Assembly: GCA_001797815.1 (NCBI GenBank)
Contig: MGQK01000067.1
Coordinates: 44,964-53,019 of the forward strand
Source of the DNA: Deltaproteobacteria bacterium RBG_13_61_14
Lineage (GTDB): Bacteria; RBG-13-61-14
DNA length: 8,056 nucleotides
Reading direction: 5' to 3'
The position numbers and the translations under genes were made by a program. This document shows, piece after piece, positions 1 to 8,056 of this stretch. The notes under the pieces were generated by a model, which had not been told where the DNA came from, made no database searches, and saw nothing but the letters and a program-made list of their open reading frames with translations. How positions within the stretch are numbered: the first letter of the stretch is position 1; the number at the start of each line of letters is the position of its first letter.

Positions 1-572
1 AAGACTAGCTGGTAGCTGTTACCGGGCGTGTTGGTATAGAACTGAATGTAGCCCCTCGCGCCGTTCTCGATCGCTCGGCTGTAGGAATTTGAAAACGCGG
101 CCAGGGACATCAGGTTCAAGAACCGATGGCCCCAGCTCACCAGCACCACCTTGCCCGAGACGTCCTCCTCCCCAAAGGCGCGCTCGCCGCCCTTGCCCAC
201 GTAAACCAGCTCGGCCGTGAGCCCGTCCCGTCCAGTGGGACCGCTGTGCCACATGGGAAAACTCTCCAGGATCCGGCCGTTGGGCGAGACCACCTCCAGG
301 CTCCACCTCTCCGGGAAATACTGTTCAAACGGGATCGAGTCGGTCCACACCTTGTATCCCCATTCCTCAAGCTGGCTGATAATATGATCCCGCGCCCGGT
401 CCATGGCCTCGGTGCCCGGCCGACGCGGGCCGAACCCGGTCTGGACGGTGGCCCATCCGTAGATTTCTTCGCCGGATGGTCCGGGCGGAGCGGGATACAC
501 CTCCTCTCCCAAGAACAGAAAGAAAAAAAACCCAAGCATGAGGGATCCCCTTCTGATTCCTTGATTCCTCAT
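1..572 (-). CDS. M28-like peptidase paralogue, N-terminal part only (3' end off window)
   Basis: The frame is open from an ATG at 572 to the left edge, giving 190 residues; the C-terminal catalytic part lies outside the window. The start is supported by an AGGAGGAG Shine-Dalgarno 5 nt upstream; an in-frame ATG at 590 has a much weaker site. Residues 5-22 look like a signal peptide: RR-containing n-region, then a Phe/Leu-rich core (LMLGFFFFLFLG). Residues 35-110 align by eye with the downstream-numbered neighbour at 641-2242: both have EEI.GW, then F-G-x-R-R-P-G-T-E-A, then a helix and W-S-L. Residues 119-180 (AELVYVGKG, DVSGKVVLV, AIENGARGYI) resemble the PA-type insert of M28 aminopeptidases. 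The gene lies 68 bp downstream of its paralogue and is probably co-transcribed. An A8 run (523-530, plus strand) lies in the signal-peptide codons. Family assignment rests on the paralogue and is fairly secure; activity cannot be judged. Confidence 0.8.
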   Translation of the reverse strand, partial: MRNQGIRRGSLMLGFFFFLFLGEEVYPAPPGPSGEEIYGWATVQTGFGPRRPGTEAMDRARDHIISQLEEWGYKVWTDSIPFEQYFPERWSLEVVSPNGRILESFPMWHSGPTGRDGLTAELVYVGKGGERAFGEEDVSGKVVLVSWGHRFLNLMSLAAFSNSYSRAIENGARGYIQFYTNTPGNSYQLV

Positions 573-640
573 TTTCTCCTCCTGGGTCATGTCCCTTGGC
601 CGATCTTTTCCCCTTCCCTGGCTGGTGTCCGGCCGGAAGA

Positions 641-2242
641 TCATCGTTTCATCAGGTTGATGATATAGCCGACGGCCGCAGAATAATATTGAAACCGGTA
701 GCGAGGAATCCAAGCCTGTTTGCTTACGACCTGAGACGGCGTTTGGTCAATGGATTCGATGATGTCCGCAAAAGCGGTGGCGACCGGGTTCAATTGATCC
801 ACCGCCACTTTATCCGGCGTGTCCACCAGATCATAAATATAAAGCGGCGGACTGATCAAACTGATAATCGTGAACCCGGCCCGATTAAAATCTCCGGCGT
901 CGGTGGGCACGCCGAGGATGGTATAAGTCGGCAGGAGCACGGTGCGCTCGAGGTTGTGCCTCTCCACGGCCTGGCTGACGAGGGAAATGAGATACGGGTT
1001 TTCTGTAACAAATATGCCCCTGGGTTCAACAAACCCTGTCTCCACCAGCTTCCCGTCCTTTTCCACGATTTCTTTGCCGATATGTTCCAAGACGATATCA
1101 ACAATCACGTTCATCTTTTTTTCCCTGATTTCCTTGATCAAGGCCAGGTGTCCCTGATACATGGAAAAGTGCGTGTCCAGGCTGACGAACATCAGGGTTT
1201 TTTCCCTTTGGTCCGCGGGAATCGAGCCGAAATATTTGGCCAGGGCCAGGACTTCCGCAACCCCGGACGCGTCTTCAACCGCGCTCGCCCAGGGCGCGTC
1301 ATGGTGGGAGTGCACCATGATAATCTCGTCGGTTTTTCCCGGCAGAAAACCGATGACATTATAGGCTTCGGCCGGCACAATTTTCCCGTCCAGCACCAGC
1401 GTCGCTTGATTGGTGGAATCTTTCTGAAGTAATTCCTTTAAGCTGGCGCCGTCGGATTTGCTCAGCCACAACCCCGGGATCGGCCACAAACAGGGTTCCT
1501 CCCCATAGAGTTCGTTGTAATAGGTGTTACGGTCAAAATAGTCGGTGAGGATCCCGACAAATCCCACGGCCCCATGCTGGGCGGCCCGGGAAAAATTGGA
1601 CGGGAAATTATTGGGCGAATAGGGGTTGGCCTGGTGCCAGTCCGGGGGCGCGGTATTATTCGGGTCATAGGCGAAATAGGCGACGCCGACCGAATCGGAC
1701 TGATACAACTGGCTGAAGCGAACGTCCGCCAGCACGATCTTGCCCCGGACGTCAACTTTCCGGAAATCTTTCTCTCTCCCTTCCCCGACATACACGATCT
1801 CCGCTCGGATTCCCTCAGGACCGGCGCTGAAACCCTCGTATTCCTTGATCCAATAAGAATGGGACAGGTAAAAACAGGGAATGTCTTCGCCATTGACCGT
1901 CAGGCTCCATTTTTCCGCAGTCCAGAGAGGCATCGCGACCGGTTCAAGATGCGCCTTTTCCAACCCGAATTCCTTGAACTTGTCCAGGATATATTGGGCT
2001 GCCTGGTGATCGGCTTCGGTTCCAGGCCTTCTATAACCAAAATTGCATAGATCCTGGATCCAGCCCAAAATCTCTTCATTCGAGGGCAATTGCTTGACCG
2101 AGGGATTCAAAACAAACTTTTCCGAGGCCCAGGCCCGAAAACCTTGAACAAATAGAACCGCCGCGCCGACCAAGAACAAGATCATCAAACCCGCGACCTT
2201 CTGGTTAAGAATCTTGGACTTTTTTCCCTTCATTTCTGGCAT
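641..2242 (-). CDS. M28 (aminopeptidase-like) family protein, membrane-anchored, altered metal site
   Basis: 533 residues. Residues 15-38 form an N-terminal hydrophobic anchor or uncleaved signal; the rest should be periplasmic or extracellular. Residues 55-130 form the N-terminal segment shared with the paralogue at 1-572. Residues 145-290 look like a PA-type insert (AEIVYVGEG, DVRGKIVLADV, AAQHGAVGFVGIL). The M28 core follows: NVIGFLPGKTDEIIMVHSHHD (H313, D315), then A-V-E-D-A-S-G (E323, D324), a VSLDTHF segment at 353-359, LEHIG (E386) and DLVDTPD (471-477). M28 enzymes normally have H-x-D, D-N-x-S-G, Glu-Glu, Asp and a late His. Here the Glu-Glu position reads His-Phe, the bridging Asp position reads Glu, and the late His appears to be Asp. 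The fold assignment is good; catalysis is doubtful or uses a different ligand set. The start has AAGGGGG 7 nt upstream of the ATG; the gene begins 22 bp after the M24-like gene ends. Confidence 0.85.
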   Translation of the reverse strand: MPEMKGKKSKILNQKVAGLMILFLVGAAVLFVQGFRAWASEKFVLNPSVKQLPSNEEILGWIQDLCNFGYRRPGTEADHQAAQYILDKFKEFGLEKAHLEPVAMPLWTAEKWSLTVNGEDIPCFYLSHSYWIKEYEGFSAGPEGIRAEIVYVGEGREKDFRKVDVRGKIVLADVRFSQLYQSDSVGVAYFAYDPNNTAPPDWHQANPYSPNNFPSNFSRAAQHGAVGFVGILTDYFDRNTYYNELYGEEPCLWPIPGLWLSKSDGASLKELLQKDSTNQATLVLDGKIVPAEAYNVIGFLPGKTDEIIMVHSHHDAPWASAVEDASGVAEVLALAKYFGSIPADQREKTLMFVSLDTHFSMYQGHLALIKEIREKKMNVIVDIVLEHIGKEIVEKDGKLVETGFVEPRGIFVTENPYLISLVSQAVERHNLERTVLLPTYTILGVPTDAGDFNRAGFTIISLISPPLYIYDLVDTPDKVAVDQLNPVATAFADIIESIDQTPSQVVSKQAWIPRYRFQYYSAAVGYIINLMKR

Positions 2243-6055: not shown

Positions 6056-7051
6056 TTAACGCTTCAATAAATTTCGCAGGGCTCGGGCAGCCGCCCGTTG
6101 CGGATCGTGAGCGTTAACGCCGAGATAGCCGCCCAGCATCTCGACGGCAAACTGGTTGTCGGCCCAGTTGCCGTCGTCTTCCAGGCCGGTGAAGTGCAGG
6201 TCCAGGTCCCAGTATTCGAAGCCGCCTTGGACCGAGAAGGTGCGGGTGAGGGAGTATTCGGTAAAAAGACTGACCTGGTTGAAGCGGGCATCGGCCGGCA
6301 TGTCGGTAAAGAGCGGAATTTCGACCGAGGCTCCGGGGTCAAGGGGGATGTTGAAAAGCGAAGTTTTCAGATCCAGGCCCAGGGAGAACTTGCGGTTAAA
6401 CCGCCAATCGGAATGGGCGGAGAGGTAGGGGACCAGGGGGGCGTAGATCACTTCGGTGCCCATGACGGCTTCTTGGTCCTCATCCGAGAAGGCAATGGTG
6501 GAGCGCAATTGGCGGAGCCCGGCGCCCAGGTCCAAGGTCAAGCGCCGGGGGTAAAAGCCCCGGTCCAAGGCGCGGTAATACCAGCCCAGTTGGAGTGAAT
6601 CCAGAATGACCCCGCCATCCGAAGGTCCTACCTCATGGTAATAGTTATCGTTGAAGCCGGTGGGTTCCTGGAACGTCCCCTCTCCCTCTTGTTGGCCCCA
6701 CCAATACCCCAGGGTGAGATGGTTTCTCCGGCTAAGCCGGAAGTCCAGAGAAAGATCATAGATGGGAATGTTCACCAGACCCATTTGATCCGGCACATCG
6801 AGAGGCTTCATCTGGTAGCTTCGGGTGTCGCTGTTCCGGGCAAGGGCGCTGCCCGCAAGGATTGAAAAGTAGTGGGTCTTCAACGCCAGATCGAGGCGAG
6901 GATCGTGGTAAAGGTTCGGAGAAGCGGGCCGGACCAGCTTTTCGGCTACGGGTTGAAGGGAAACCGAAGTTTCAGACCGAAGGGTTCCCGGTCCAATCAA
7001 CATCCCACTGATCGCGAGCAGTCCCGCGATGCCCCAGAATGAGGTTTTCAA
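6056..7051 (-). CDS. Putative outer-membrane beta-barrel-like exported protein
   Basis: The frame is open back to 7123, but the best start is TTG at 7051: AAGGAG lies exactly 6 nt upstream, and a good promoter occupies 7096-7123, inside the longer reading. This gives 331 residues. The N-terminus (MKTSFWGIAGLLAISGM...) is a basic residue followed by a hydrophobic stretch of about 18, as in a signal peptide. The mature part has repeated amphipathic strands separated by Asp/Gly/Asn turns: YDLSLDFRLSRRNHLTLGYWWG, DSLQLGWYYRAL, RRLTLDLGAGLRQL, LVPYLSAHSDWRFNRKFSLGLDLKT, QVSLFTEYSLTRTFSVQGGFEYWDLDLHF, FAVEMLGGYLGV. This fits a small outer-membrane barrel. The usual C-terminal aromatic is absent; the protein ends in a basic ARALRNLLKR tail. 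No family or substrate was recognised. It is probably a single-gene unit. Confidence 0.7.
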   Translation of the reverse strand: MKTSFWGIAGLLAISGMLIGPGTLRSETSVSLQPVAEKLVRPASPNLYHDPRLDLALKTHYFSILAGSALARNSDTRSYQMKPLDVPDQMGLVNIPIYDLSLDFRLSRRNHLTLGYWWGQQEGEGTFQEPTGFNDNYYHEVGPSDGGVILDSLQLGWYYRALDRGFYPRRLTLDLGAGLRQLRSTIAFSDEDQEAVMGTEVIYAPLVPYLSAHSDWRFNRKFSLGLDLKTSLFNIPLDPGASVEIPLFTDMPADARFNQVSLFTEYSLTRTFSVQGGFEYWDLDLHFTGLEDDGNWADNQFAVEMLGGYLGVNAHDPQRAAARALRNLLKR

Positions 7052-7057
7052 CTTGAT

Positions 7058-7191: not shown

Positions 7192-7217
7192 AAAAAAAGA
7201 GCCACCGGGCCCGGCGG
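7192..7217 (-). terminator. Intrinsic terminator at the end of the candidate sRNA
   Basis: On the minus strand CCGCCG and CGGTGG pair (one G-U wobble) around a GGCC loop (7217-7202), immediately followed by CTC and seven Ts (7198-7192). This is a textbook rho-independent terminator. The nearest upstream protein gene stops at 7585, about 370 bp away, so the terminator probably serves a separate transcript. Confidence 0.75.
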
Positions 7218-7360
7218 AGATGGGGTTGAGGTGGGGATAAGGGTTGATTCGCCGGTTTCCAGATGGCCCATGTCAACGCGAGAGCCAAGCCTCGCGATTT
7301 TCAATTGTTACGGCGATGAGCACTCCAGGGGTCTCTTTCCTGATGCTCATCGTAACTGAT
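7192..7360 (-). ncRNA. Candidate sigma-54-dependent structured small RNA (about 169 nt)
   Basis: The boundaries are the start predicted from the sigma-54 promoter (12 nt past the GC, near 7360) and the terminator U tract. The RNA would fold in three parts. A long 5' hairpin (7307-7356) has arms GATGAGCA/TGCTCATC, extended by GTTAC/GTAAC with a GCC bulge, and capped by an inner CAGG/CCTG stem. A second hairpin (7277-7296) has CGCGAG/CTCGCG with an 8-nt loop. A C-rich unpaired stretch (about 7221-7248, with CCCC, ACCTC and ACCCC) precedes the terminator. C-rich loops in known sRNAs can pair with Shine-Dalgarno sequences. Short frames exist (7273-7350, 25 codons; ATG at 7382, 28 codons) but lack ribosome sites. 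Alternative: a long regulated leader of the gene at 7051. Inference from sequence only. Confidence 0.45.
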
Positions 7361-7370
7361 CGTTAAAGGT

Positions 7371-7386
7371 AGCAATTCATGTGCCA
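7371..7386 (-). promoter_or_regulatory. Near-perfect sigma-54 (-24/-12) promoter
   Basis: Minus strand TGGCAC, five bases, TTGCT: the consensus is TGGCACG-N4-TTGCW, and only the G after TGGCAC differs. GG and GC are exactly one helical turn plus two bases apart, as sigma-54 needs. Just upstream is AATCAA-TGGG-TTC (7391-7403), matching the IHF consensus WATCAA-N4-TTR except for the last base, behind an A/T-rich stretch. A sigma-54 promoter needs an enhancer-binding activator; the palindrome at 7490-7522 is at a suitable distance. Confidence 0.65.
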
Positions 7387-7489
7387 TAATGAACCCATTG
7401 ATTTAATTAGATTTTTAAAACAACCATTGCTAAAAAAGAGCTTTGAAGGTGCCATAAAGGGTCAGCGACTGACAATTTTCGGCAGCTAT

Positions 7490-7522
7490 AACTTAACATG
7501 GGGTCAGACCCCATGTTAAGTT
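7490..7522. repeat. Perfect 33-bp palindrome (REP-like element or activator site)
   Basis: Arms AACTTAACATGGGGTC and its exact complement flank a single central base (7506), a 16-bp arm without mismatch. It lies about 62 bp past the PiT stop codon and has no U tract on either side, so it is not a normal terminator. Two readings: a REP-like palindrome (GGGGTCAGACCCC cores occur near Y1-type transposases in some genomes, from memory), or the upstream activator site of the sigma-54 promoter, 146 bp from its predicted start. No transposase is in view. Confidence 0.75.
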
Positions 7523-7584
7523 GAGGTGCGGTTTAGCCGGATGATCTAAATGCTAGCTGTGGGCTGGGATTCTCGGCCGGTCAA

Positions 7585-8056
7585 TTAGTGGAGCAATACT
7601 TTTTTGGCAAACTCCAAAGCAAGAAAGGCTAATGCAGCAACTAAAGCCGAGCCGGGGATGGTCAGAACCCAGGCCCAGATGATTCGGAGGCTGACGCCCC
7701 AGCGCACCGCGGTCAGGCGCTGGATGGAGCCTACTCCCACGACCGCACCGGTGATGGTGTGGGTGGTGCTGACCGGGATTCCGGCGATGGAGTTGCCGAT
7801 AATGGAGACGGCCGCGGCGAGTTCGGCGCAAAAGCCGCCGACCGGCCGGAGTTTGGTCACCTTCATGCCCAGGGTATTAACCACGCGCCAGCCGCCGGTG
7901 AGAGTGCCAAGCGCGATGGCGGTGTAGCAGGCAAAGATCACCCAGGCCGGGACGTGGAAATCGTTCTGATAATGCGCGGTATAGAGAGCTAGGACGATGA
8001 TGCCCATGGTCTTTTGGGCGTCGTTCATGCCGTGGCCCAGGCTAAAGGCGGCAGAG
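7585..8056 (-). CDS. PiT-family inorganic phosphate transporter, C-terminal part (5' end off window)
   Basis: 156 residues visible, entering from the right edge in frame and ending at TAA 7585-7587. The fragment begins with SLGHGMNDAQKTMG, the PiT repeat signature (GxNDAQK) that lines the substrate path, and contains GGFCAELAAAVSIIGNSIAGIPVSTTHTITGAVVGVG, the second typical motif with the SxTH segment. Four to five hydrophobic membrane segments follow one another (about residues 16-28, 40-57, 79-97, 103-117 and 131-150). PiT proteins import phosphate (or metal-phosphate) in symport with H+ or Na+ across the inner membrane. Genes for PiT often sit with a PhoU-like DUF47 gene, which would be off the window. 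A symbol such as pit was not assigned because only half is visible. Family call very secure. Confidence 0.95.
   Translation of the reverse strand, partial: SAAFSLGHGMNDAQKTMGIIVLALYTAHYQNDFHVPAWVIFACYTAIALGTLTGGWRVVNTLGMKVTKLRPVGGFCAELAAAVSIIGNSIAGIPVSTTHTITGAVVGVGSIQRLTAVRWGVSLRIIWAWVLTIPGSALVAALAFLALEFAKKVLLH

Follow-up and report, generated by a model that had tools for sequence, protein, structure and literature searches.

A putative orphan small RNA gene with a sigma-54 promoter and its own terminator in Deltaproteobacteria bacterium RBG_13_61_14

Results and Discussion

An intergenic spacer on the minus strand of the window, by which we mean the whole 8,056-nt stretch that was analysed (contig C67, positions 44964-53019), holds a predicted small RNA (sRNA) of 169 nt that runs from promoter to terminator (7360-7192). 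We infer that this RNA is transcribed, and the locus is probably an orphan sRNA gene under enhancer-dependent (sigma-54) control. At the level of the gene, the sequence gives good support for an sRNA gene that has a sigma-54 promoter and a terminator of its own, because an exact promoter, an rpoN gene, a candidate activator site, a strand-specific predicted fold and an intrinsic terminator all point to it. The promoter, the terminator, the predicted fold and the presence of rpoN and hfq are read directly from the DNA. What is new is the candidate enhancer at 7433-7419 and the predicted location of a C-rich stretch in the loop of the terminator hairpin.

Genome and neighbouring genes

The genome is a 132-contig draft of 4,736,847 bases, 95% complete, from a phylum represented in our collection by three genomes only; the chorismate synthase of the window has as its nearest named relative that of "Nitrospinae bacterium RIFCSPLOWO2_12_FULL_45_22" (68% identity). 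The minus strand carries every protein gene that could be identified in the window, in the order PiT-type phosphate transporter, spacer of interest, signal-peptide protein, URO-D-type protein, chorismate synthase, M24 peptidase and M28 peptidase. The 3' part of the upstream PiT gene (PHO4; PF01384, E 5e-50) occupies 7585-8055 and is truncated by the window and contig end. The downstream gene (6056-7054) encodes a 332-aa signal-peptide protein without a Pfam family, probably an outer membrane protein; a search of five related genomes gave no homologue of it either, so that the region as a whole may be specific to the lineage. Two related genomes (G001 and G002) had PiT with other neighbours, and a consensus sigma-54 site was not found beside it in either. 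At the far end of the window (3-2242), two adjoining head-to-tail genes read like related peptidases, the second an M28 match and the first without a Pfam match, and possibly represent a tandem duplication.

Sigma-54 promoter

The -24/-12 element TGGCACATGAATTGCT (7386-7371, minus strand) agrees with TGGCACNNNNNTTGCW (TGGCAC-N5-TTGCW) with zero mismatches, with GG at -24, GC at -12 and 10 bases between them. A preliminary description of this DNA had called the element near-consensus and had named rpoN as something to confirm; the match proved to be exact, and a single rpoN gene was present in the genome, on contig C123 (PF04552, E 2.6e-62). With the GG at -25/-24, the GC at -13/-12 and the C of the GC placed at -12, the predicted +1 is the A at 7360.

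Exact copies of the promoter number three in the whole 4.7-Mb genome, and simple base counting gives about 0.002 exact matches expected in the window, in which the remaining four sigma-54 matches had two mismatches each and were at chance level. Genome-wide, sites with at most one mismatch numbered 96 as against 79 in a reversed control, so that a site carries information only if it is exact or nearly so. Among the best sites, which were read individually, the likely sigma-54 promoters of this genome have the form TGGCAT-N5-TTGCT and lie mostly in AT-rich spacers 50-260 nt 5' of genes.

A second sigma-54-like site, TGGCACCTTCAAAGCT (7454-7439), lies 68 nt upstream of the main promoter; it is weaker, has a degenerate -12 part and has TTATGGCAC in common with the main promoter. 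Elsewhere in the genome (contig C100, L185, about 1104-1764), a sigma-54-type promoter stands directly 5' of a gene that was judged by eye to resemble an ECF-type sigma factor, which suggests a sigma cascade.

Candidate activator site and a related locus

A 15-nt element, TTAGCAATGGTTGTT (7433-7419, minus strand), about 47 nt upstream of the -24 box, is a candidate enhancer, or upstream activating sequence (UAS). Elements of the form TTAGCAA(C/T)(A/T)GTT or TTAGTAACTATTGCC stand 100-114 nt 5' of the -24 box at two sigma-54 promoters of contig C99 and one of C79, and the window's element is one mismatch from the consensus of the sites at other sigma-54 promoters, which was built without the window. 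The comparison was post hoc; among 3000 dinucleotide-shuffled versions of the 198-bp upstream region, 6 matched this consensus equally well. The genome contains eight copies of the degenerate pattern TTAGYAAYNRTTRYY, which was written so as to cover the element in the window, versus zero for a reversed control; six of these copies precede consensus sigma-54 promoters (the window, C79 and four in the tandem pairs of C99), and two, on C92 and C110, do not. The candidate in the window is a single copy and lies nearer to its promoter than the elements elsewhere.

Immediately 5' of one C99 promoter is a gene whose product combines receiver, Sigma54_activat and Fis-type HTH domains, and downstream of that promoter are genes for MalQ_N/MG2-like, Ig-like/ice-binding and OmpA-family proteins. 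A similar element stands upstream of the sRNA, which may therefore belong to a surface-related regulon, a lead that is post hoc and in which the spacing differs. As a guess, such a regulon would link three protein promoters and one RNA promoter through a single activator and a single site.

The C99 locus itself (33500-42500, L183) consists of an NtrC-type activator gene, then tandem upstream sites, then the sigma-54 promoter. A second copy of this promoter, with a nearly identical upstream region and the start of the response regulator, lies 5.4 kb away; one of the two response-regulator copies is cut short, and the MalQ_N/MG2-like, Ig-like/ice-binding and OmpA-family genes sit between the two promoter copies.

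Within the window, GTCAGCGACTGAC (7461-7473) was also considered as an enhancer and rejected; similar dyads (GGGGTCAGGTCCTGACAATT) recur elsewhere, a REP-like palindrome lies next to it, and these were treated as repeats. The palindrome (7490-7522) is a perfect 16-bp AACTTAACATGGGGTC/GACCCCATGTTAAGTT, and the genome contains over 30 copies of this repeat.

Fold, terminator and coding potential

The minus-strand RNA (7360-7192) had a predicted minimum free energy of -58 kcal/mol (z -2.46, with 2 of 200 shuffles as good), and a 171-nt version of it gave z -2.71. Over these positions the plus strand reached only z -0.98, so that the called strand is the more structured of the two. GC content was 0.5-0.64 in the RNA segment versus about 0.3-0.4 in the flanks on either side. 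The most significant part of the fold is hairpin 1 (7356-7307), with 18 pairs interrupted on the 3' side (z -4.98, 0 of 200 shuffles), followed by hairpin 2 (CGCGAGGCUUGGCUCUCGCG, 7296-7277; z -3.25) and by a predicted hairpin 3 (7269-7199), an extended terminator stem of 16 pairs that closes a 33-nt loop. The compact terminator hairpin, CCGCCG-GGCC-CGGTGG, has a 6-bp stem (7217-7202) and is followed by CTCTTTTTTT; the U-tract (T7) of the intrinsic terminator spans 7198-7192. The extended stem includes the terminator's 3' half and leads without a break into the seven U, with -25.9 kcal/mol versus -9.3 for the compact terminator alone. Its C-rich apical loop, AAUCAACCCUUAUCCCCACCUCAACCCCAUCUC (7249-7217), is predicted to be unpaired with a probability of 0.93-1.0 throughout.

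Two small proteins were considered and rejected: the only long frame, of 57 aa from a TTG, traverses the terminator and has no Pfam match, and a 25-codon ATG frame at the start of the RNA lacks a ribosome site. As judged from sequence, the segment has its own promoter and intrinsic terminator and appears to be free of a coding frame. It had earlier been described as strongly structured over about 169 nt, as ending in a classical intrinsic terminator and as containing no protein gene, and on all of these points our analysis agrees. The C-rich stretch noted at the same time is indeed predicted to be unpaired, but it is the loop of the extended stem rather than a segment placed before the terminator. 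The seven U, together with an hfq gene in the genome (PF17209, E 7e-19), are what is looked for in an Hfq-dependent sRNA.

The terminator could instead serve the PiT mRNA, with the structured stretch as its 3' UTR and the sigma-54 match either incidental or part of an sRNA embedded in that UTR. PiT is on the same strand, and there is no other minus-strand terminator-like site between its stop (7585) and 7217, but a 3' UTR of about 390 nt would then have to cross the REP-like palindrome, and both the exact promoter match, so rarely expected in the window, and the candidate UAS would be left unexplained; we consider this quite unlikely.

Search for relatives and the role of chance

An Rfam cmscan of the window (E <=5) identified no GlmY, Qrr, CrcZ or other family for the RNA, in line with the preliminary description, which had not recognised it as any of these three; the only weak match in the window, mir-463 at 7487-7527, is the REP-like palindrome. 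A search of related genomes had also been proposed, and it yielded no homologue: a DNA search of the phylum (3 genomes) and of 60 genomes, and a single-sequence covariance model run on 8 chosen genomes and a set of 290, gave nothing credible beyond the locus itself, and plasmids contained no match to the RNA. A supposed second copy on contig C62 (24.7-bit model match) was rejected as chance, being antisense within an ORF and without a U-tract, and an 18-bit match in one genome (G062) and one viral-contig pattern match were likewise read and dismissed.

We also scanned 413 kb of the genome, on both strands, for a sigma-54 site with at most two mismatches followed within 60-320 nt by a terminator, defined as a stem of at least 6 pairs plus five T. 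The scan matched the studied locus and one site within an ORF, and no second intergenic pair was present in the 413 kb. These results bear on the possibility that there is no RNA gene at all and that, in an AT-rich spacer, a sigma-54 match arose by accident next to an ordinary terminator. Such an accident would fit the lack of conservation in the genomes searched, the bare genome-wide enrichment of one-mismatch sites and a z of only about -2.5 for the fold of the whole RNA. It would nevertheless require an exact promoter, a well-placed and correctly oriented terminator, a strand-specific fold and a candidate UAS to coincide, in a pairing of promoter and terminator otherwise absent from the intergenic DNA of the sample, and we regard it as distinctly improbable.

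The apical loop and its possible targets

The loop segment UCAACCCCAUCUCC shows 79% complementarity over 14 nt to the downstream membrane-protein gene, at its ribosome site and start, a pairing matched by 18 of 2000 shuffled loops. This complementarity would suit a reading in which the structured RNA is a regulated 5' leader of that gene, with the transcript usually stopping at 7192 and reading through conditionally to 7054 (attenuation); the two are on the same strand, and 137 nt separate the terminator from the start codon. The pairing energy of -13.7 kcal/mol is average, however, with 135 of 312 start regions pairing as well or better; the region holds several imperfect inverted repeats of equal quality, and no anti-terminator fold was found among the predicted structures. 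A separate extended -10 promoter-like site, TTGTCT-16-TATTAT with TG preceding the second hexamer (7123-7096, minus strand), lies between the terminator and the gene and suggests that the downstream gene is independent of the sRNA promoter. A leader is therefore an unlikely explanation, and an sRNA gene that ends at its own terminator is preferred.

On the same average duplex energy, the complementarity was rejected as evidence that such an sRNA specifically targets the adjoining membrane-protein gene. The C-rich stretch had been proposed to pair with G-rich ribosome sites in general, and this found no support over base composition: as an anti-Shine-Dalgarno element, the loop paired with 130 start regions no better, on average, than 400 shuffled loops did. 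It prefers start regions over coding DNA, and shuffled loops do so equally; its richness in C is thus enough to account for the match to G-rich ribosome sites. The start regions were predicted with a simple script in place of a gene finder, on about 9% of the genome. Among the 312 sampled, the strongest pairing, at -35.1 kcal/mol and without conservation support, was with the start of an anti-sigma-like zinc-finger gene (L158, 16584-17355, minus strand). The C-rich loop is a possible seed region, one for which the pairing tests gave no specificity over composition.

Proposed mode of action

In the mechanism that we propose, the RpoN holoenzyme would wait at TGGCACATGAATTGCT until it is switched on by an NtrC-family activator, possibly the product of the C99 gene, bound some 60-75 nt 5' of the start; transcription would then begin at about 7360. 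The resulting 169-nt RNA would have two 5' hairpins and then the extended terminator hairpin with its 33-nt C-rich single-stranded loop, and its tail of seven U would be suited to Hfq, which presumably binds there. Base-pairing of the loop with mRNA start regions would be the most likely mode of action.

A bolder version, which we think unlikely, is that the RNA is lineage-specific, carries a C-rich antisense seed in its terminator loop, shares a single NtrC-type activator with the OmpA/ice-binding surface operon and represses envelope-protein mRNAs. If true, this would be a GlmY- or RybB-like circuit of independent origin in a deep uncultured phylum.

Comparison with known sigma-54-dependent and C-rich sRNAs

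Sigma-54-driven sRNA genes are an already known kind, and the RNA described here is without a relative in the genomes searched. The well-described examples are from Pseudomonadota (GlmY, Qrr, CrcZ and NrsZ). CrcZ and CrcY have single-stranded CA/C-rich stretches, and CrcZ is longer, with repeated A-rich Hfq/Crc motifs; the anti-Shine-Dalgarno loop of certain sRNAs of Alphaproteobacteria could mask ribosome-binding sites. We take GlmY to be similar in length to the present RNA, and the pairing region of the Qrr RNAs is presumably replaced here by the C-rich loop.

In Enterobacteriaceae, GlmY is an intergenic sRNA with a sigma-54 promoter and upstream sites bound by the NtrC-type response regulator QseF/GlrR (PMC6075780). 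The predicted sRNA likewise has an intergenic spacer, a sigma-54 promoter and a candidate upstream site, but that site is TTAGYAAYNRTTRYY rather than the TGTN12ACA of QseF, no activator gene is adjacent, an Rfam match is absent, and no link to RapZ or glmS is apparent. The Qrr RNAs of Vibrio are controlled by sigma-54 and the NtrC-type activator LuxO (PMC10162802); the present sRNA, in contrast, is single copy, without a LuxO neighbour and without an Rfam match to Qrr. CrcZ and CrcY of Pseudomonas and Azotobacter are regulatory RNAs under RpoN control (PMC6292655), from which the present sRNA, again without an Rfam match, differs in having one C-rich loop. The anti-Shine-Dalgarno sRNAs of Alphaproteobacteria present a C-rich sequence in a hairpin loop (PMC6234868), a feature that the predicted sRNA shares, although it lacks CUCCUCCC, pairs no better than shuffled loops do and has a sigma-54 promoter.

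By sequence, then, the predicted sRNA belongs to none of GlmY, Qrr and CrcZ, which it resembles in its control. As one locus in one genome, it offers a credible case from a deep, uncultured lineage and suggests that enhancer-dependent control of sRNAs of the GlmY, Qrr and CrcZ kind may be wider.
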